The position numbers and the translations under genes were made by a program. A DNA stretch of 6,573 nucleotides from an uncultured Bacteroidales bacterium (lineage in GTDB: Bacteria > Bacteroidota > Bacteroidia > Bacteroidales > Paludibacteraceae). The stretch lies in contig CAIQOG010000417.1 of NCBI GenBank assembly GCA_903873355.1, positions 1-6,573 on the forward strand, given 5' to 3'. Every line of letters starts with the position of its first letter. The stretch's first letter is position 1. The notes under the pieces were generated by a model. The model saw only the letters and a program-made list of their open reading frames with translations, had not been told where the DNA came from and did not search any database. Positions 1-5,902 of the stretch are shown in pieces.

Positions 1-1107
1 GCATTAAAATTCATTGTAGAGACGAGGCATGCCTCGTCTCCAACAATTTCGTCTCCGACGAAATTGTTAACAGCCATCAATCAAGTCAAAGTTGAAGATT
101 ACCTCACCCGTGTCATTTCCAGCGAAATGAGTGCCACCGCTTCCAACGAATTATTGAAAGCACATGCGGTTATTTCGAGAAGTTGGTTATTATGCCCGTT
201 GCAAGAGCAAAGAATAAAGAATAAAGAACAAAGTCAACTTTCTGAGACAAAAACTATAAACTATAAACTATCAACTATCAACTACACGAAGTGGTACGAA
301 CGCGATGCCCATACTCATTTTGATGTTTGTGCCGACGATCATTGCCAGCGCTATCAGGGCATTACCCGTGCCAGCACCGCAGCGGTGGAAAAAGCCATCG
401 AGGCTACCCGGGGCGAAGTGTTGATGTACGAAGGACAAATCTGTGATGCCCGTTTCAGTAAATCGTGCGGTGGTGCTACCGAAACTTTCGAAAACTGCTG
501 GGCACCAGAGCATCTCCCCTACCTCAGCAAAGTAATAGACAACCCCACTACACCCGAAGGTTATGAGTTGGATTTGACTGTGGAAGCCAATGCTGAGAAA
601 TGGATACGCGAAAGTCCGGAAGCTTTCTGTAATACTTCTGATAAGAAAATCCTTTTGCAAGTGCTGAATAATTACGACCAGGAAACCACGGACTTTTACC
701 GCTGGAAAGGGGAGTACTCACAGGCTGAACTTTCTGAGATTATTTGTCGTCGTTCGGGCATTGAATTTGGCGAAATCATTGATTTAATTCCTGTAAAACG
801 TGGAGAATCCGGTCGTATAATTGAACTAAAAATAGTCGGAACCAAACAAACTGTGATAGTGGGCAAAGAACTTGAAATCCGCAAATGGTTATCCAACTCG
901 CACCTGTATAGCTCGGCATTTGTGGTGGATAAAGCGGAAATCGTGAACGGCATACCACAACGTTTCGCCCTTACAGGTGCAGGCTGGGGACATGGCGTGG
1001 GGCTTTGCCAGATTGGTGCTGCTGTAATGGGCGAGAAAGGATATCGGTACAATGAGATTTTGTTGCATTATTTTCTGGGGGCGGGATTGAAGAGGATATA
1101 CCCCTAA
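1..1107 (+). CDS. SpoIID/LytB (amidase-enhancer-like) domain protein, 5' partial
   Basis: SpoIID-family proteins act outside the cytoplasmic membrane on peptidoglycan; characterised members are lytic transglycosylases cutting denuded glycan, or amidase enhancers. The frame is open from base 1, so the true start lies left of the window. Base 64 is only an internal TTG. Visible family motifs are VEDYLTRVISSEMSA (about 91-135), LKAHAVISRSW (154-186), FDVCADDHCQRYQGITRAST (near 319-378), RFSKSCGGATETF and, near the C-terminus, GWGHGVGLCQIGA (982-1020). The SEM glutamate near base 124 matches the catalytic glutamate of SpoIID. Two stretches look like repeat DNA read in frame: bases 16-68, between ALKFIVE and LLTAIN, and bases 205-291, a variable linker ending before KWYERD. 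The stop TAA (1105-1107) lies inside an intergenic repeat copy. ampG starts 50 bases downstream, probably in the same operon. The family is secure; the exact enzymatic role is not. Confidence 0.88.
   Translation, partial: ALKFIVETRHASSPTISSPTKLLTAINQVKVEDYLTRVISSEMSATASNELLKAHAVISRSWLLCPLQEQRIKNKEQSQLSETKTINYKLSTINYTKWYERDAHTHFDVCADDHCQRYQGITRASTAAVEKAIEATRGEVLMYEGQICDARFSKSCGGATETFENCWAPEHLPYLSKVIDNPTTPEGYELDLTVEANAEKWIRESPEAFCNTSDKKILLQVLNNYDQETTDFYRWKGEYSQAELSEIICRRSGIEFGEIIDLIPVKRGESGRIIELKIVGTKQTVIVGKELEIRKWLSNSHLYSSAFVVDKAEIVNGIPQRFALTGAGWGHGVGLCQIGAAVMGEKGYRYNEILLHYFLGAGLKRIYP
16..40. repeat. REP-like palindrome preceded by GTAG, inside the SpoIID frame
   Basis: Bases 19-40 form a perfect 22-bp palindrome: the arm GAGACGAGGCA is followed directly by its reverse complement. 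GTAG at 16-19 overlaps its left edge. A GTAG tetranucleotide 5' of a palindrome is the hallmark of REP sequences mobilised by RAYT (TnpA-REP) proteins, so REP origin is plausible but inferred. It is read in frame as about ETRHASS. Confidence 0.7.
42..68. repeat. 12-bp inverted repeat with 3-base loop
   Basis: AACAATTTCGTC (42-53) and GACGAAATTGTT (57-68) are perfect reverse complements separated by TCC. The repeat follows the REP-like palindrome after one base, so the two hairpins look like one compound element of about 50 bp. It is translated as roughly TISSPTKLL within the SpoIID gene without creating a stop. Confidence 0.75.
252..285 (+). repeat. Heptamer tandem repeat AACTATM within the SpoIID gene
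   Basis: About 4.9 head-to-tail copies of a 7-base unit: AACTATA twice, AACTATC twice, then AACTAC. Three units make 21 bases, so the peptide also has a 7-residue period (TINYKLS then TINYTK). Just upstream, 210-228 holds a second short AATAAAG-type duplication. The tract fills the variable linker between the N-terminal SpoIID segment and KWYERD. Confidence 0.8.
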
Positions 1108-1120
1108 CCCCTAAAGGGGA
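1100..1120 (+). repeat. Intergenic repeat copy 1, left arm; contains the SpoIID stop codon
   Basis: The core CCCCTAACCCCTAAAGGGGA begins at 1101. It holds a small self-palindrome (CCCC-TAAA-GGGG) preceded by a second CCCCTAA unit. The SpoIID gene terminates at the first TAA (1105-1107), so the repeat supplies part of its last two codons (Tyr, Pro) and its stop. It is the inverted partner of 1203-1223: 20 of 21 positions match, and the odd one becomes a G-U pair in the plus-strand RNA. Confidence 0.9.
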
Positions 1121-1157
1121 ATAAGAAATATTACTAATGATCGTTTGAAAATTTTAT

Positions 1158-2495
1158 ATGACAAAAAATAAAAAAGAAATACTGAACGAAATTAACCACA
1201 ACTCCCCTTTAGGGGTTGGGGGTCATAAAACCCCCTGGACCTGGATTCCAAGCCTGTATTTTGCCGAAGGTCTGCCTTATGTGGTTGCCATGACGGTGGC
1301 TGTAATTATGTACAAACGGCTTGGCATTTCGAATACCGATATTGCGTTGTATACCAGTTGGCTGTATCTGCCGTGGGTTATAAAACCATTTTGGAGTCCG
1401 TTTGTGGATATTATAAAAACAAAACGCTGGTGGATTGTAAGTATGCAGTTGCTGATTGGTGCAGGACTTGCCGGAGTTGCGTTTCTTATTCCCACGACGT
1501 TTTTCTTTCAGGCAACGCTGGCCGTGTTATGGCTGATTGCCTTCAGCTCGGCGACTCACGATATTGCTGCCGATGGTTTTTATATGCTTGGGTTGGACAG
1601 TTCGCAGCAGTCGTTCTTCGTGGGCATCCGCAGCACTTTTTACCGGTTGGCCATGATTTCGGGTCAGGGATTGCTGATTATTGCTGCAGGTGCTTTGGAA
1701 CATTATACAGGTAATCTTCGACTGGCATGGAGCATCACGTTCTTTATTTTGTCCGGTTTATTTCTGCTGTTCTTTATTTATCACCGATTTATTCTTCCAC
1801 GTCCTGATTCCGATATTACTAAAGCTGAAAACAGTCCCAAAGAGATTTTCAGGGAATTCGGACTGACTTTCGCTTCGTTCTTTCAAAAGAAAGGAATTGG
1901 ACTGGCAATTGCTTTTATGCTTCTTTACCGGCTGGGTGAAGCTATGCTGGTGAAAATGGCATCGCCTTTTTTGCTTGATGCCCGCAATGTCGGCGGACTC
2001 GGGCTGAACACCGAACAGGTGGGCCTGGTTTACGGTACAGTGGGTATTATTGCCCTGACCCTGGGTGGAATTGTGGGTGGAATAGCTGCTTCACGCAAAG
2101 GTCTGAAATACTGGATTTGGCCAATGGCACTGAGCATCACACTGCCGCATTTGGCTTATGTGTATCTGTCTTGGTTCGTGCCAACCAGTTTTATTCTGAT
2201 AAATATTGCAGTCGCCATTGAACAGTTCGGTTACGGGTTCGGCTTCACGGCATACATGCTTTACCTCATTTACTTTGCCGACGGTGAACACAAAACGGCT
2301 CATTACGCGATGTGTACTGGTTTTATGGCATTGGGAATGATGCTTCCGGGAATGATTGCCGGAAAACTGCAGGACATGTTCGGGTATCAGCATTTCTTTA
2401 TCTGGATCATGATTCTGTCCATTCCCACGCTGGCTGTTATTCCTTTTCTGAAAATTGATAAGGAGTTTGGGAAGAAGAAGACCCCTAACCCCTAA
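1158..2495 (+). CDS. ampG: AmpG-like MFS permease (probable muropeptide importer)
   Basis: This 445-residue inner-membrane transporter of the major facilitator superfamily matches the AmpG group, whose characterised members import GlcNAc-anhydroMurNAc muropeptides for wall recycling. The hydrophobic profile fits about 12 membrane segments, with a charged central loop near residues 210-230 (PRPDSDITKAENSPKE). Group-specific signs are SLYFAEGLPY (32-41), the first-half motif KPFWSPFVD (76-84) followed by KTKRWW, and SATHDIAADGFYM (131-143), which corresponds to the SASQDI region of E. coli AmpG. The ATG at 1158 is preferred because the next Met (residue 45) falls inside the first membrane segment. 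Residues 16-22 (SPLGVGG) are encoded by repeat copy 2, and the C-terminal TPNP plus the stop come from copy 3. Upstream SpoIID supports a wall-recycling role. The specific substrate is inferred. Confidence 0.85.
   Translation: MTKNKKEILNEINHNSPLGVGGHKTPWTWIPSLYFAEGLPYVVAMTVAVIMYKRLGISNTDIALYTSWLYLPWVIKPFWSPFVDIIKTKRWWIVSMQLLIGAGLAGVAFLIPTTFFFQATLAVLWLIAFSSATHDIAADGFYMLGLDSSQQSFFVGIRSTFYRLAMISGQGLLIIAAGALEHYTGNLRLAWSITFFILSGLFLLFFIYHRFILPRPDSDITKAENSPKEIFREFGLTFASFFQKKGIGLAIAFMLLYRLGEAMLVKMASPFLLDARNVGGLGLNTEQVGLVYGTVGIIALTLGGIVGGIAASRKGLKYWIWPMALSITLPHLAYVYLSWFVPTSFILINIAVAIEQFGYGFGFTAYMLYLIYFADGEHKTAHYAMCTGFMALGMMLPGMIAGKLQDMFGYQHFFIWIMILSIPTLAVIPFLKIDKEFGKKKTPNP
1203..1223 (-). repeat. Intergenic repeat copy 2, right arm; encodes AmpG residues 16-22
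   Basis: This is the inverted partner of copy 1, separated by 82 bases that include the ampG start codon. It is read in the only stop-free frame of this orientation, giving SPLGVGG. Its G-run (1218-1223) can also pair with ACCCCC at 1230-1235 across a 6-base loop, giving a third possible fold. Confidence 0.9.
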
Positions 2496-2500
2496 AGGGG
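2480..2500 (+). repeat. Intergenic repeat copy 3, left arm; contains the ampG stop codon
   Basis: Same core as copy 1, starting GACCCCTAACC. The ampG frame passes the first TAA out of phase, encodes TPNP, and stops at the second TAA (2493-2495). It is a perfect 21-base inverted match to 2591-2611, 90 bases away. Confidence 0.92.
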
Positions 2501-2536
2501 AATTTAGAAAAGCAAATTACCAAAAATCCGCCAATC

Positions 2537-2563
2537 AATGCAAATTTTATTTACCTTTGCATT
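2537..2563 (+). promoter_or_regulatory. Putative tyrA promoter: TAnnTTTG box in an inverted repeat
   Basis: TACCTTTG at 2552-2559 fits the Bacteroidota -7 consensus TAnnTTTG. No clear TTTG -33 element is visible at the usual distance. The box overlaps a perfect 8-base inverted repeat, AATGCAAA (2537-2544) and TTTGCATT (2556-2563), which could be a regulator site. A start near 2566 would leave a leader of about 50 bases containing repeat copy 4. Confidence 0.5.
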
Positions 2564-2590
2564 CAATTTAATTCAAACAATCCCAAAGTC

Positions 2591-2611
2591 CCCCTTTAGG
2601 GGTTAGGGGTC
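2591..2611 (-). repeat. Intergenic repeat copy 4, right arm; immediately upstream of tyrA
   Basis: Perfect reverse complement of copy 3. It ends 7 bases before the tyrA ATG. Its AGGGG (2605-2609) lies 9 bases before the ATG, the usual distance of a Shine-Dalgarno sequence, and resembles AGGAG, so the repeat may supply the ribosome binding site. Confidence 0.9.
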
Positions 2612-2618
2612 CTCTTAT

Positions 2619-3392
2619 ATGAAGATATTAGTTCTTGGTGCCGGAAAAATGGGCACATTTCTTACCGATGTGTTGTGCATCAATCACGAAGTAGCGCTTT
2701 TCGACACTGATCCAAAGCGTCTGCGGTTTGTGTTCAACACCCAACGCATGACCGATTTCGAAGAAGTTCGTGCGTTTGAACCGGAGTTGGTTATCAACTG
2801 CGTAACGCTGAAATATACCATTGAGGCTTTTCAGGCTGTATTGCCATATCTGCCAAAGAATTGTATTCTATCGGATATTGCTTCGGTTAAAACAGGCATT
2901 CAGGAATACTACGAAGCAAGCGGTATGCGCTATGTATCCACCCACCCGATGTTCGGGCCAACCTTTGCAACACTCGATAACCTGAGTACACAAAGCGCCA
3001 TTATTATCTCAGAATCCGACCACATGGGTAAGGCATTTTTCAAGGATTTGTACGGTTCGCTGAAACTCCGGATTTTTGAATACAGTTTTGAGGAACACGA
3101 CGAAACCATTGCTTATTCGCTGTCTATTCCGTTTGCATCAACGCTGGTTTTTGCTTCGGTAATGATACCACAGGAAGCTCCCGGAACGACCTTTAAGCGC
3201 CACATGGATATCGCTAAAGGATTGCTGAGCGAAGATGATTATCTGCTTGCAGAAATTCTATTCAACCCACACACGCATAATCAAATGGAGAAAATCCGTG
3301 CAGAATTGAAAACGTTGATGGAAATAATTGATGACAAAGATATGGTGCGTATGCAGGCATTTCTGAAAAAAGTGAGGAAAAATATTGAATAA
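2619..3392 (+). CDS. tyrA: Prephenate dehydrogenase (TyrA)
   Basis: A 257-residue cytoplasmic enzyme converting prephenate to 4-hydroxyphenylpyruvate with NAD+, the dehydrogenase step of tyrosine synthesis. The N-terminal Rossmann fold shows LGAGKMG (6-12), with Asp30 at the end of the second strand, favouring NAD over NADP. SDIASVKTG (85-93) and STHPMFGPT (107-115) are the family's active-site segments, with His109 in the expected HPM.GP position. EEHDETIAYSLSIPF (158-172) begins the helical C-terminal dimerisation domain. There is no fused chorismate mutase and no C-terminal ACT domain, so this is the short monofunctional form common in Bacteroidota. It has its own probable promoter but follows ampG on the same strand by 123 bases, so read-through is possible. 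I see no other aromatic-pathway gene nearby. The close resemblance to Bacteroides TyrA is from memory. Confidence 0.93.
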   Translation: MKILVLGAGKMGTFLTDVLCINHEVALFDTDPKRLRFVFNTQRMTDFEEVRAFEPELVINCVTLKYTIEAFQAVLPYLPKNCILSDIASVKTGIQEYYEASGMRYVSTHPMFGPTFATLDNLSTQSAIIISESDHMGKAFFKDLYGSLKLRIFEYSFEEHDETIAYSLSIPFASTLVFASVMIPQEAPGTTFKRHMDIAKGLLSEDDYLLAEILFNPHTHNQMEKIRAELKTLMEIIDDKDMVRMQAFLKKVRKNIE

Positions 3393-3511
3393 GATTTTAG
3401 AGGCAAGAACCAAGATAAAAGACTAAAAAAAACTCAATTATAAAATTAGTGTAATTACCTCCCGATGGTCACTGACCGTTGGTTCGTATTAATTCTTAAA
3501 ATTAGCAGATT
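3393..3511. other. tyrA to small winged-helix gene spacer, with possible operator
   Basis: This 119-base AT-rich gap lacks the CCCCTAA repeats found at the other co-directional junctions. The only structure I see is GGTCACTGACC at 3467-3477, two 5-base half-sites around one base, 35 bases before the next ATG. It could be a repressor site, possibly for the small downstream DNA-binding protein, but that is inference. I cannot identify a convincing TAnnTTTG box. Confidence 0.3.
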
Positions 3512-3688
3512 ATGGAAACAAAACAAATTGTACTGGAAGCCATGAAGAAAGTTGGCGCTCCGGTAAATGCAGGAAAACTGGCAGAACTTACAGGTCTCGA
3601 CCGCAAAGAAGTGGATAAAGCTATGAAAGCCCTGAAAACTGAAGGTGCTATCGTTTCTCCCAAAGTTTGCTTTTGGCAACCGGCGTAA
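3512..3688 (+). CDS. Small winged-helix (HTH) DNA-binding-like protein, 58 residues
   Basis: The frame runs from the ATG at 3512 ([15 protein letters not shown]) to a TAA at 3686-3688. The protein consists almost entirely of one winged helix-turn-helix unit: helix 1 (about 4-14), helix 2 [10 protein letters not shown] (19-28), recognition-like helix [17 protein letters not shown] (29-45) and a short wing (46-55) ending CFWQP. The pattern of a [18 protein letters not shown] turn followed by a basic helix and EGAIVSP resembles MarR/ArsR-like folds. I recall very similar short proteins in many Bacteroidota, annotated only as transcriptional regulators or hypothetical. No sensing or oligomerisation domain is present. 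The gene stands alone between tyrA and a terminator. Coding is supported by regular heptad-like helices and by the terminator directly downstream. Its DNA target is unknown. Confidence 0.78.
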
Positions 3689-3709
3689 TCAATTATTCAA
3701 TTCCCCGCT

Positions 3710-3734
3710 CGGCTATGCCGCTTGGCTTGCCAAG
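3710..3734. repeat. Two adjacent small hairpins
   Basis: CGGC-TAT-GCCG (3710-3720) is followed immediately by CTTGG-CTTG-CCAAG (3721-3734). They lie 21 bases after the small gene's stop and before the terminator. The GC-rich patch stands out from its AT-rich surroundings and may be another dispersed repeat or an mRNA 3'-end structure. Confidence 0.4.
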
Positions 3735-3745
3735 AATTTCCAATT

Positions 3746-3786
3746 AAACCGACCACTCAGCTTAATGCAAGAGGTCGGTTTTTTTT
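3746..3786 (+). terminator. Rho-independent terminator between convergent genes
   Basis: AAACCGACC (3746-3754) pairs perfectly with GGTCGGTTT (3773-3781), and the T-run continues to 3786. An inner CTT/AAG stem (3761-3763 with 3769-3771) may shorten the loop. It serves the small winged-helix gene on the plus strand. On the minus strand the same hairpin begins directly after the murI stop but is followed only by TTTAATT, so termination there is probably weaker. The murI stop (3785-3787) overlaps the T-run. Confidence 0.85.
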
Positions 3787-4660
3787 ACCCCACATCAATA
3801 TGCTCTGCCTGAATTTCTTCATTTAGGAAAATGGAAGCGGAAGATGCAAATTTAGCCACTGATTCGGTGGTAAGATAGCGAATAGAAGCTCCTGTTGTAC
3901 ATTTGGCAGCCATATCGGGATGGCGTTGGAGGTAATCAGCCAGACTTTGAGCCACAATTTCACCCTGTGAAACCACCTTTACCGACTCCGGCAGATAACT
4001 TTTAATTTGCTCAACAATTAGCGGGTAATGCGTACAACCCAGCATCACCGTGTCAATCTGAGGATCCGCAGCAAGGAGGTTTTCCACGTTTCTGCGGATA
4101 AAATAATCAGCGCCTTCGGTGTTATGTTCGTTATTCTCAATCAGCGGAACCCACAGCGGACAAGCTTCGGAAGTAACCACGATGTTTTCGTGCAGTTTGG
4201 CTATTTCGAGCGGATAGGAATTGGACTGAACCGTTCCGGCGGTTGCCAGCAAACCAATATGTTTGGTTTTGGTCATTGCACCAACCGCTTCCACGGTAGG
4301 ACGAATAACTCCCAGCACACGCCGGTTCGGGTCAATCAATGGCAGGTCTTTTTGCTGAATGGTGCGCAGCGCCTTGGCCGAAGCCGTGTTACAAGCCAGC
4401 ACCACCAACTGACAACCCATTTCAAACAGTTGATTTACACATTCCAGCGTAAATTTATACACCACATCAAACGAACGGGTGCCATACGGCGTGCGGGCAT
4501 TGTCGCCCAAATATATATAATCGTATTGAGGCAGTTCAGTACGGATTTTCTCCAAAATAGTCAAACCGCCATAACCCGAATCGAAAATGCCGATAGGACC
4601 TACCCCTAACCCCTGAAGGGGAACTGAGTTAGTTTTGTTTGATATATATTTGTCAATCAT
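3785..4660 (-). CDS. murI: Glutamate racemase with repeat-encoded N-terminal extension
   Basis: MurI converts L- to D-glutamate in the cytoplasm for UDP-MurNAc-peptide synthesis. The 291-residue product shows PIGIFDSGYGGLT (22-34) with the conserved Asp27-Ser28, YLGDNARTPYG (50-60), the first catalytic cysteine Cys90 in ACNTASA, GVIRPTVEA, and the second catalytic cysteine Cys209 followed by His211 in GCTHYPL. The enzyme therefore looks active. Family members usually begin within a few residues of the IGIFDSG segment. Here about 21 residues precede it, and residues 14-20 (PLQGLGV) are encoded by repeat copy 5. No usable start codon lies between the repeat and residue 22, so the ATG at 4660 is the only reasonable choice. 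It lies 41 bases downstream of the M23 gene and is probably co-transcribed with it. Confidence 0.94.
   Translation of the reverse strand: MIDKYISNKTNSVPLQGLGVGPIGIFDSGYGGLTILEKIRTELPQYDYIYLGDNARTPYGTRSFDVVYKFTLECVNQLFEMGCQLVVLACNTASAKALRTIQQKDLPLIDPNRRVLGVIRPTVEAVGAMTKTKHIGLLATAGTVQSNSYPLEIAKLHENIVVTSEACPLWVPLIENNEHNTEGADYFIRRNVENLLAADPQIDTVMLGCTHYPLIVEQIKSYLPESVKVVSQGEIVAQSLADYLQRHPDMAAKCTTGASIRYLTTESVAKFASSASIFLNEEIQAEHIDVG
4602..4621 (+). repeat. Intergenic repeat copy 5; encodes MurI residues 14-20
   Basis: Inverted partner of copy 6 (4682-4701), matching at 19 of 20 positions across a 60-base spacer that contains the murI start codon. The mismatch is base 4615: on the coding strand CAG replaces the TAG that a canonical copy would place in this frame. 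The murI frame thus reads CCC CTT CAG GGG TTA GGG. Confidence 0.92.
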
Positions 4661-4681
4661 TTTAATTATAGTTTCTTAATC

Positions 4682-4701
4682 CCCCTTTAGGGGTTAGGGG
4701 T
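4682..4701 (-). repeat. Intergenic repeat copy 6, abutting the M23 stop codon
   Basis: Read on the minus strand, the canonical core ACCCCTAACCCCTAAAGGGG begins at the base right after the M23 stop TAG (4704-4702). It keeps the unmodified TAAA centre, unlike copy 5. Confidence 0.92.
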
Positions 4702-5670
4702 CTAATCAAACATCTGTCCTGCATTGTTGCTCATCTGAACCATCTTATCGTATTCAGCCGGCGACAAATCGAGGTAATAATAATTCTGCGGATTCATAAT
4801 TGTTCCTTTGTAATGAACCTCATAATGCAGGTGCGGACCGGTCGATTTCCCGGAATTTCCCACAAGGCCGATAACATCACCACGTTTTACCTGCTGTCCT
4901 GCACGTACTTTGACGGCACTCATGTGACCATACAGAGTAAAATAACCGTAACCATGGTTAATCTGAACACAAGTTCCATAACCCTGTTCCCAACCTGAAC
5001 TTACTACAACTCCATTTCCCGTTGCAAAAATATTGGTGCCGATTGGTGCTGTAAAATCCATTCCGGCGTGGAAACGACGCGAGTGATAAATGGGGTCAAT
5101 TCGCCATCCATAACCTGAAGCCATACGGGTTAGATTTTTATTCAAAACAGGTTGTATAGCTGGTAAATTCTCAAGCATTGTTTCTTTATTCTTTGCCAGT
5201 AAAATCAGCTCATCGTATGATTTTGACTGAATATAAAGTTCCTTTTTCAGCTCATTCAGTTTTTTGGAAGTGGCAACCACAATTTCCGAATTGGTCATAT
5301 CAAGCAATTTCTCATAATACTCTGTGTTTGCCGAACTTCCCCTTCTTACTGATAACGGAATTGGATCGGCCTGGAAAATAACGCGGTATAAATTGTCGTC
5401 GCGCTGTTCAAGATCGCTCATAACATACCGAACTTCCTGCAATTGCCTTTCAAGAACCTTATACTGAGCTTCCATATGTGCCTTTTCCTGCACAAGTTGT
5501 TTTTCTTCAGGAGACTGGATAGTAGAAACAAAAATAAAGAAAAATATTATTCCCAGCGATAATCCGGAAAGTGCATGAATAGCCAGTTGTTTAAGCCAGT
5601 GAGCAATGGTGTGCTCAACCTGCTCATAACTCAGTGTTTCGGGATTGAAGTGGAATTTTATTTTGGCCAT
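4702..5670 (-). CDS. Membrane-anchored M23 (LytM-type) metallo-endopeptidase
   Basis: A 322-residue cell-wall hydrolase predicted to cut peptide cross-links in peptidoglycan from the periplasmic face. There is a cytoplasmic N-terminus of about 32 residues, one membrane segment (about 33-50, rich in Ile and Phe), then a coiled-coil-prone stretch (about 54-90, and again near 130-165). The peptidase domain covers about 185-295. All zinc and catalytic residues of the family are present: His201 and Asp205 in FHAGMDF, His249 in LYGHM, and His280 and His282 in GPHLHYE. It is therefore likely to be an active enzyme rather than an EnvC/NlpD-like activator. The start ATG (5670-5668) gives a typical MAKIKFHF opening. 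It is the first gene of a probable two-gene unit with murI and diverges from alaS. Related proteins in Bacteroidota are often next to alaS, in my recollection, which would make this a conserved divergent pair. Confidence 0.9.
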   Translation of the reverse strand: MAKIKFHFNPETLSYEQVEHTIAHWLKQLAIHALSGLSLGIIFFFIFVSTIQSPEEKQLVQEKAHMEAQYKVLERQLQEVRYVMSDLEQRDDNLYRVIFQADPIPLSVRRGSSANTEYYEKLLDMTNSEIVVATSKKLNELKKELYIQSKSYDELILLAKNKETMLENLPAIQPVLNKNLTRMASGYGWRIDPIYHSRRFHAGMDFTAPIGTNIFATGNGVVVSSGWEQGYGTCVQINHGYGYFTLYGHMSAVKVRAGQQVKRGDVIGLVGNSGKSTGPHLHYEVHYKGTIMNPQNYYYLDLSPAEYDKMVQMSNNAGQMFD

Positions 5671-5791
5671 AAGAAAAAATCATTCTTACCGAAAAAGATT
5701 CCCGGTAAAAATTTCAGTAAATTAAATAAAAATCAATCGCTTCTAATAGAAAATCAACCTTTTAATGCAATTTTTACAACTACAATTGCTA

Positions 5792-5799
5792 CAAAAGTA
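5792..5799 (-). promoter_or_regulatory. Putative -7 box for the M23-murI unit
   Basis: On the minus strand this reads TACTTTTG, an exact TAnnTTTG match. Transcription would start near 5785, giving a leader of roughly 115 bases before the M23 ATG. No TTTG -33 element is clear. It is the left arm of a perfect 8-base inverted repeat whose right arm is the alaS -7 box. Confidence 0.5.
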
Positions 5800-5811
5800 A
5801 TAAATTTGAGC

Positions 5812-5819
5812 TACTTTTG
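5812..5819 (+). promoter_or_regulatory. Putative -7 box for alaS
   Basis: TACTTTTG, an exact TAnnTTTG match followed by CATTC. An ATTG (5785-5788) lies 23 bases upstream, somewhat far for a -33 element. A start near 5826 would give a leader of about 90 bases that includes both arms of the repeat pair at 5849-5902. Confidence 0.55.
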
Positions 5820-5848
5820 CATTCTTTATTTGAGATTATTAACCTAGA

Positions 5849-5870
5849 ACCCCTAAATCCCCTAAAGGGG
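5849..5870 (+). repeat. Intergenic repeat copy 7 in the alaS leader, left arm
   Basis: A divergent family member: the usual TAA between the two CCCC runs is expanded to TAAAT. The half CCCCTAAAGGGG (5859-5870) is canonical. Confidence 0.85.
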
Positions 5871-5880
5871 ACTCTTTGAA

Positions 5881-5902
5881 CCCCCTTCAGGGGGCAGGGG
5901 GT
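5881..5902 (-). repeat. Intergenic repeat copy 8 in the alaS leader, right arm
   Basis: A variant with G5 runs (CTTCAGGGGGCAGGGGGT). Separated from copy 7 by only 10 bases, it can form a hairpin: CCCCTAAAGGGG pairs with CCCCTTCAGGGG at 11 of 12 positions around a loop of about 11 bases. The copy ends 16 bases before the alaS ATG. Confidence 0.82.

Follow-up and report, generated by a model that had tools for sequence, protein, structure and literature searches.

What are the short inverted repeats that lie at gene boundaries in contig CAIQOG010000417.1 of an uncultured Bacteroidales bacterium (assembly GCA_903873355.1), and what placed them there? The window, i.e. the whole stretch of 6.6 kb that was analyzed, has its best matches in uncultured Bacteroidales and Paludibacter-type metagenome-assembled genomes, and carries eight repeat arms arranged as four inverted pairs. 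Each pair is probably a copy of a non-autonomous, translation-compatible palindromic element with a REPIN-like layout and with translation like that of the Rickettsia palindromic elements (RPE), mobilized by a nuclease of the DUF559 family. The element itself is well supported, and the role of DUF559 is one that we infer from its association with the arms. Copies in related genomes are mostly paired, polarized and biased toward gene junctions, many are open to reading through the right arm, and they occupy some orthologous sites and are absent from others.

All eight arms, their grouping into four pairs, their coordinates, the spacers of 82, 90, 60 and 10 bases (pairs 1 to 4) and the left-forward, right-reverse order were reproduced from the original prediction, which had been made from the sequence of the window. 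The arms and the sites between them are as follows:

1100-1120, plus strand: pair 1 left (forward, F) arm; holds the stop codon of the SpoIID-like gene (1105-1107).
1121-1202, plus strand: pair 1 spacer, class A type (see below); AmpG-like start at 1158 (57 nt, counted from the arm core's first base).
1203-1223, plus strand: pair 1 right (reverse, R) arm; in frame as NSPLGVGG near the AmpG-like N-terminus.
2480-2500, plus strand: pair 2 left (F) arm; holds the AmpG-like stop codon (2493-2495; C-terminus ..KKKTPNP).
2552-2559, plus strand: promoter-like TACCTTTG in the pair 2 spacer; found too in arm-less relatives.
2591-2611, plus strand: pair 2 right (R) arm, class B; followed by 7 bases and then the prephenate dehydrogenase start (2619).
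4602-4621, minus strand: pair 3 arm in the murI N-terminus; reads NSVPLQGLGV; TTCA variant.
4682-4701, minus strand: other arm of pair 3; directly past the stop of the M23 peptidase gene.
5849-5870, plus strand: pair 4 left arm, CCCCTAAATCCCC variant; 3' of the alaS promoter-like site.
5881-5902, plus strand: pair 4 right arm; in the alaS 5' leader.

The arms are real, but they are not copies of one exact shared 20-mer as had been proposed: they vary slightly, by a few bases, and pair 4 represents a variant form with the left arm CCCCTAAATCCCCTAAAGGGG. The statement that no pair lies in the middle of a gene overlooked that the arms are partly coding, with stop codons in the left arms of pairs 1 and 2 and codons of the AmpG-like gene and murI in arms of pairs 1 and 3. 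No target-site duplication was found by inspection at the four window pairs, as had been noted before, nor at two insertion sites in isoleucyl-tRNA synthetase (IleRS) genes described below. The TACCTTTG site is one that we take to be a promoter motif, as is, presumably, the site upstream of pair 4; the former is common to arm-less relatives and is therefore probably host sequence.

Arms were counted genome-wide in relatives rather than in the window's own genome, by searching both strands of 11 genomes with a 19-base core at up to 3 mismatches and with the reversed pattern as control. Core matches (forward + reverse) numbered 93+96 in G001, 77+79 in G002, 73+79 in G009 and 99+97 in G007; the reversed control gave 0 in the two richest genomes (189 matches in G001 and 196 in G007) and 0-1 per strand in the other nine, and arm matches are far above chance. 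At up to 2 mismatches, at least one core match was found in 47 of 295 sampled genomes of the order, with more than 30 in G007 only. In 751 kb of G007, 102 arms were found at up to 4 mismatches, and arms with a neighbor less than 300 bases away were arranged as 38 FR, 3 FF, 3 RR and 0 RF (median spacer 79); these tiles were picked partly for arm density, so that the densities are not genome-wide. Twenty more G007 fragments, fetched around listed matches, gave 20 FR, 5 RF, 3 FF and 2 RR, where four of the five RF and five of the 20 FR came from a single tandem array around a DUF559 gene (L179) and the fifth RF was formed by two pairs in tandem (L176). G001 yielded 33 arms in 398 kb (10 FR, 1 FF). 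Tabulation of orientation, spacer and position in the relatives examined was dominated by FR pairs at junctions; copies were not mostly single, randomly oriented or evenly spread through coding sequence, the outcome that would have refuted the original prediction.

The element is usually ~90-140 bp long, with ends of core CCCC-TAA-CCCCTNAAGGGG that extend inward to ~36 nt in many copies and with a mostly A+T-rich center. That the center is free had been part of the original prediction, and most spacers have indeed diverged, so that spacers as a conserved element body hold only partly; the uniform internal polarity of one class of copies (below) and the promoter-like site of pair 2 show that the center is not wholly free. 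In G004 (L196, L198, L199, L200, L201, L202) an arm variant, CCCCAAGCCCC, was seen near contig ends within a larger repeat of ~200 bp, which by eye has outer inverted ends of its own (AAGTAATGGAAT..ATTCCTATTACTT).

Placement was scored with a simple open reading frame (ORF) caller for 86 FR pairs from G007, G001, G004/G005 fragments and the window. Seventy-nine lay between co-directional genes, 4 between divergent and 0 between convergent genes, 1 within a gene and 2 at contig edges, compared with a background in the G007 tiles, called in the same way, of 434 co-directional, 62 convergent and 60 divergent junctions. Several G007 pairs lie within trp-, nif- and nuo-like clusters (gene names by eye). 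For 42 pairs (G007 tiles and window) the position of the upstream gene's stop codon was determined. In 25 it precedes the left arm by 3-17 bases, in 7 the arm itself contains it, in 2 it falls a little past the arm, in 4 it is more distant on the upstream side, and for 4 no stop was identified. Stop codons in two frames are built into the left end, and some upstream genes use them.

Downstream of the pairs, 87 genes fell into two classes. In class A (37/87) the two arms enclose an in-frame ATG, from which reading continues in frame through the right arm, translation being assigned by reading frame only; in class B (50/87) no start was found between the arms and the gene starts outside. In 28 of the 37 class A genes the distance between the ATG and the arm core is 51-65 nt, and in 24 of 37 the next in-frame ATG, GTG or TTG is at least 15 codons past the arm, so the start codon supplied by the element is likely the one used. 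The right arm is used in two frames, and the resulting N-terminal tails have the form ..NSPLGVRG.. or ..NSVPLQGLGV..; the AmpG-like and MurI proteins of the window are examples (typical class A sequences: MSNIKNRTDGSNFSSPLGARG and MNKEKDMQNNTNFSSPSGVGG). The TTTA form of the arm closes the VPLQGLGV frame with a TAG; class A lacks TTTA there by construction, and with that proviso the TTCA form was found in 16 of 37 class A arms vs 2 of 50 class B arms. The murI arm (4602-4621) is such a TTCA variant and thereby avoids a stop in that frame. Internal polarity was alike in 21 of 21 class A copies (leave-one-out); among 21 class B copies 17 could be scored, of which 12 had the class A polarity and 5 the reverse, and the idea that class B is class A reversed was not supported. 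Translation of the element and its donated start codons had been missed in the original prediction. With stops at its left end, a start codon in its center and an open right end, the element can settle in tight operons and at N-termini and leave both genes intact.

Comparison with relatives, which had been suggested as a check, revealed both filled and empty orthologous sites. The pair 1 site is empty in L005, where the SpoIID stop overlaps the AmpG start, holds a diverged pair in L004 and the left arm only in L007, and in L001 is taken by other palindromes and a RAYT-like gene (PF01797 match G001:C29:2518-2763, E 2.2e-5). At the pair 2 site the element is present in L003, L005 and L007 and absent from L001, L004, L012 and L019, and a decayed left arm is seen in L002. 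The pair 3 site is filled in L012 with a different spacer and empty in L019; the pair 4 site is empty in L012 and filled by the same element in L019. MurI homologues with the window-type tail occur beside 92-95% identical ones with a short N-terminus, and by a strict pattern 38 among the 120 listed of 7995 homologues, retrieved with a tailed query, had the tail.

Other sequences were observed at the same junctions. The RAYT-like gene at the pair 1 junction in L001 (6337-7037) is accompanied by GTAGGGACAGGTCGTGACCTGTCC palindromes, and in L012 the pair 1 and pair 4 junctions are occupied by other repeat families (2470-2680 and 7260-7430; AACTTTTCCAAAGTTTGGAACTTTGGAAAAGTT and repeated TTATTTACTTCGTG). 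Since a RAYT-like gene stands at the pair 1 junction in L001, this junction may be a hot spot for unrelated elements. Pair 4 is letter-identical in the window (5849-5902) and in L019 (~13471-13524), while the DNA around it is ~78% identical; this suggests that it was inserted recently or exchanged, or is under strong constraint.

The original prediction named no enzyme. At L179 in G007 (3437-4867), tandem copies of the element, in a CCCCAAGCCCCTAAAGGGG variant, were observed on both sides of a DUF559 gene, and this array led to a search for DUF559, which returned 21 matches in 9 of the 11 genomes, several of them in frame within long genes. DUF559 was also found in 109 of 198 sampled Bacteroidota genomes, where at least 24 of the matches listed lay in open frames of more than 600 aa (by eye). 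Each of the 10 proteins scanned had, by Pfam, host domains and DUF559 in a single frame. The hosts, named by Pfam, NCBIfam, orthology and sequence (five of the ten named also beyond the Pfam scan), are IleRS (G004 and G006, at different sites), valyl-tRNA synthetase (ValRS), leucyl-tRNA synthetase (LeuRS, three genomes), PurL, HsdM and MetH (two genomes). At L257, where the inverted ends are long, DUF559 forms a C-terminal fusion with a PurL/PurQ-like protein and is not internal. Filled IleRS genes stand beside empty orthologues (G001 and G004 have the insert at site 1, G001 and G006 at site 2), and the inserts, bounded by inverted CCCCCTAAATCCCC..GGGGGACTT-type ends, replace a few native loop codons. 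An insert is ~150 aa and consists mostly of DUF559 plus arm-encoded peptide. The ratio of nonsynonymous to synonymous substitution (dN/dS) was 0.075 and 0.074 in two IleRS DUF559 inserts vs 0.015 in an IleRS flank, with synonymous sites near saturation; these low values argue for purifying selection on the nuclease.

Of 46 testable DUF559 loci (of 50 in all), 24 had inverted ends that scored above both controls, among them 10 of the 16 embedded ones; in the first DUF559 set, 10 of 19 loci reached an end score of 36 or more vs 2 of 1200 random intervals. Ends from distant genomes keep the layout of a pyrimidine half, ~3 nt and a hairpin, e.g. CCCCTCCC-TAA-CCCTCCCCGAAGGGGAGGG in G465. There, two FR pairs of this arm flank a DUF559 gene; the arm has 17 matches in G465, 16 of them within FR pairs, and five other genomes have none. 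In G007, one DUF559 protein is encoded between window-type FR pairs and bears both arm peptides (..NSPSGVRD.. and ..RTPNP). Among the 120 listed of its 571 homologues, 76 have the tail upstream of MFYGALP by the strict pattern and 8 begin at MFYGALP; this count, like that for MurI, came from a tailed query, and the tail frequency is suggestive of a link between DUF559 and the window-type arm.

A structural model of DUF559 (mean predicted local distance difference test score, pLDDT, 75) was matched by Foldseek to the endonuclease-like entry 3hrl (E 9.5e-6) and, second, to the homing endonuclease I-Bth0305I (E 3.4e-3), which we take to be of the EDxHD class; an IleRS insert also has a weak sequence match to I-Bth0305I. 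As modeled, the DUF559 family has a Vsr-like nuclease fold, and a Caulobacter DUF559 protein is called Vsr-like in the available text of PMC12907096.

On these grounds DUF559 genes between ends of the same layout are candidate parents of the short pairs, and DUF559 probably mobilizes the element. The nuclease would nick or cut arms or target junctions, repair would then copy the arm-bounded segment, the short pairs would be the non-autonomous copies, and copies bringing stop and start codons would survive in tight operons. A regulatory role of the mRNA hairpins would be either a rival explanation or a later benefit.

Several results weigh against this explanation. No movement of the element was observed, and the window itself has no DUF559 gene. 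Ends above controls were lacking at 22 of the 46 DUF559 loci, including ValRS and two of the three LeuRS. The window-arm DUF559 subfamily was not found at E 1e-20 in the arm-rich drafts G003, G009 and G010, only distant embedded copies (40-44%) passed that threshold in G001, and a 46% relative occurs in G023, a draft in which no arm was found; a strict one-to-one link between DUF559 subfamily and arm was thus unsupported across genomes. Occupancy alone does not make a gene the engine, as the tail in 38 of the 120 listed MurI homologues illustrates. In G465 the junction preference and the tails were not seen: 2 of 7 fetched places look convergent once short ORFs spanning an arm are set aside, and these seven places showed no translated tail. 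Amplification of a second DUF559-linked arm, in G476, was likewise rejected, with just 1 match. Finally, the pair 2 spacer resembles host sequence, which an insertion in one piece does not explain; two separate arm insertions or a later exchange are possible there.

The pairs could instead be true REPINs, i.e. two repetitive extragenic palindromic (REP) sequences mobilized by a RAYT (HUH, Y1) transposase which has since been lost or is no longer linked to them. An inverted doublet of short palindromes or hairpins in many copies, with variable center and fixed polarity, is a REPIN-type trait, and REPs are described as occurring in inverted doublets termed REPINs in the available text of PMC6006769 and PMC3733652. 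RAYT (PF01797) matches were present in 6 of 8 genomes searched, and CGTC, the tag of one REP class according to the accessible part of PMC3733652, in some copies occurs ~15 bases in from one end and does not adjoin the hairpin. On the other side, none of 30 fetched RAYT loci (35 listed) was bracketed by arms (CCCCTAACCCCTAAAGGGG pairs), with one stray arm-like match at 3 mismatches at L095; G006 and G010 have arms and no PF01797 match; no GTAG adjoins the arm hairpin by inspection; and the arms bracket DUF559 genes, not RAYTs. RAYT was accordingly rejected as the engine, and REPIN origin in the strict sense is quite unlikely. The REPIN- or MITE-like (miniature inverted-repeat transposable element) character originally predicted thus stands as a description, given the conserved inverted ends, copy number, FR polarity and filled and empty sites, but not as strict REPIN membership. 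As for the MITE side, terminal inverted repeats, the lack of a gene of its own, high copy number and a small center would suit a MITE belonging to a conventional DDE transposon, DUF559 then being a passenger that tolerates these ends or tracks them, and the arm variant inside the ~200 bp G004 repeat with other outer ends (by eye) points the same way; such an origin is very unlikely in view of the lack of target-site duplication at inspected sites and of DUF559 being the coding sequence found between F and R arms, where no systematic search for non-RAYT transposases was made.

The pairs may also be boundary elements kept by selection, as the original prediction allowed. In its specific form, this would make them a regulatory leader, a long mRNA hairpin (with the start codon in its loop in class A) controlling translation, decay or processing and copied as a regulon. 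Pairs 1-3 fold strongly as RNA (z -7.1, -7.2 and -6.0), but any inverted pair folds well and pair 4 is weak (z -1.75). Repeated use in the trp-like and nif-like clusters of G007, the lack of convergent junctions among the 86 pairs and the identity of pair 4 in the window and L019 would suit such a leader. Occupancy, however, differs among near relatives (MurI proteins of ~94% identity occur with and without the element), Rfam found no RNA family in the window at gathering score, and arm-bounded DUF559 inserts within enzymes make no sense as leaders; this explanation is unlikely. Mobilization by DUF559 is preferred to these three.

Parts of the element resemble known systems. RPEs are short palindromes in many unrelated genes that are translated in frame with the host protein (PMC10969869, as far as its available text goes), and the element here is also read in frame across unrelated genes (the 37 class A genes and the DUF559-bearing inserts). 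It differs in lying mainly at junctions, often with a start codon, in its inverted pyrimidine-N3-hairpin (Y-N3-hairpin) ends and in its association with DUF559, no nuclease being named for RPEs in the available portion of that report. REP/REPIN sequences with their RAYT form a REPtron, in which inverted hairpin doublets are scattered and one enzyme gene is flanked by the same doublets (available text of PMC6006769 and PMC3733652). The FR-DUF559-FR arrangement in G465 is alike; here, in contrast, the enzyme is a Vsr-like nuclease and not an HUH transposase, no GTAG was seen at the arms and many copies are translated. I-Bth0305I, the second-best PDB fold match, likewise lies in a mobile element, but is listed in the PDB as a mobile intron protein, whereas the DUF559 elements are in-frame protein inserts. 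Inteins share nuclease-bearing in-frame inserts in conserved enzymes, and the LeuRS and MetH inserts are at apparently the same site in different genomes; no Hint or splicing domain, however, was among the Pfam matches of two DUF559 sequences and 10 host proteins, and the insert of ~150 aa is mostly DUF559 plus arm-encoded peptide. Neither DUF559 with palindromic arms nor in-frame DUF559 inserts were described in the titles and abstract openings searched, which covered few subscription journals; within that literature, the combination of parts resembling RPEs, REPINs and Vsr-like homing endonucleases was not found.

A wider reading is offered tentatively, as a possibility still somewhat short of probable: that translated mobile elements are a widespread class in Bacteroidota, in which the Vsr-like DUF559 lies between cognate inverted Y-N3-hairpin ends and homes in frame, without splicing, into conserved enzymes, with numerous non-autonomous offspring settling at operon junctions, at least in the Paludibacter-type lineage, by means of their own stop and start codons. 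Matched pairs of arm and nuclease would then be a nuclease counterpart of REP-RAYT, steadily adding N-terminal tails and internal loops to housekeeping proteins. If true, this would be a mobile element that lives in gene-dense operons by bringing stop and start signals, it would supply essential enzymes with new N-termini and loops, and it would point to a role for DUF559; annotated N-termini and odd insertions in these genomes may be element sequence.

The genes of the window are SpoIID-like, AmpG-like (major facilitator superfamily), prephenate dehydrogenase, MurI-like racemase, M23 peptidase and AlaS, with the following positions for those beyond the SpoIID-like gene:

Start 1158, plus strand: AmpG-like gene.
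Start 2619, plus strand: prephenate dehydrogenase.
Start codon 4658-4660, minus strand: murI; the codon lies between both arms of pair 3 (class A).
4702-5670, minus strand: M23 peptidase gene.
Start 5919, plus strand: alaS.

The SpoIID-like gene contains an in-frame low-complexity stretch at 192-290 (CPLQEQRIKNKEQSQLSETKTINYKLSTINYTK) built of short repeats such as AACTATAAACTATCAACTA, which is possibly another translated repeat family.

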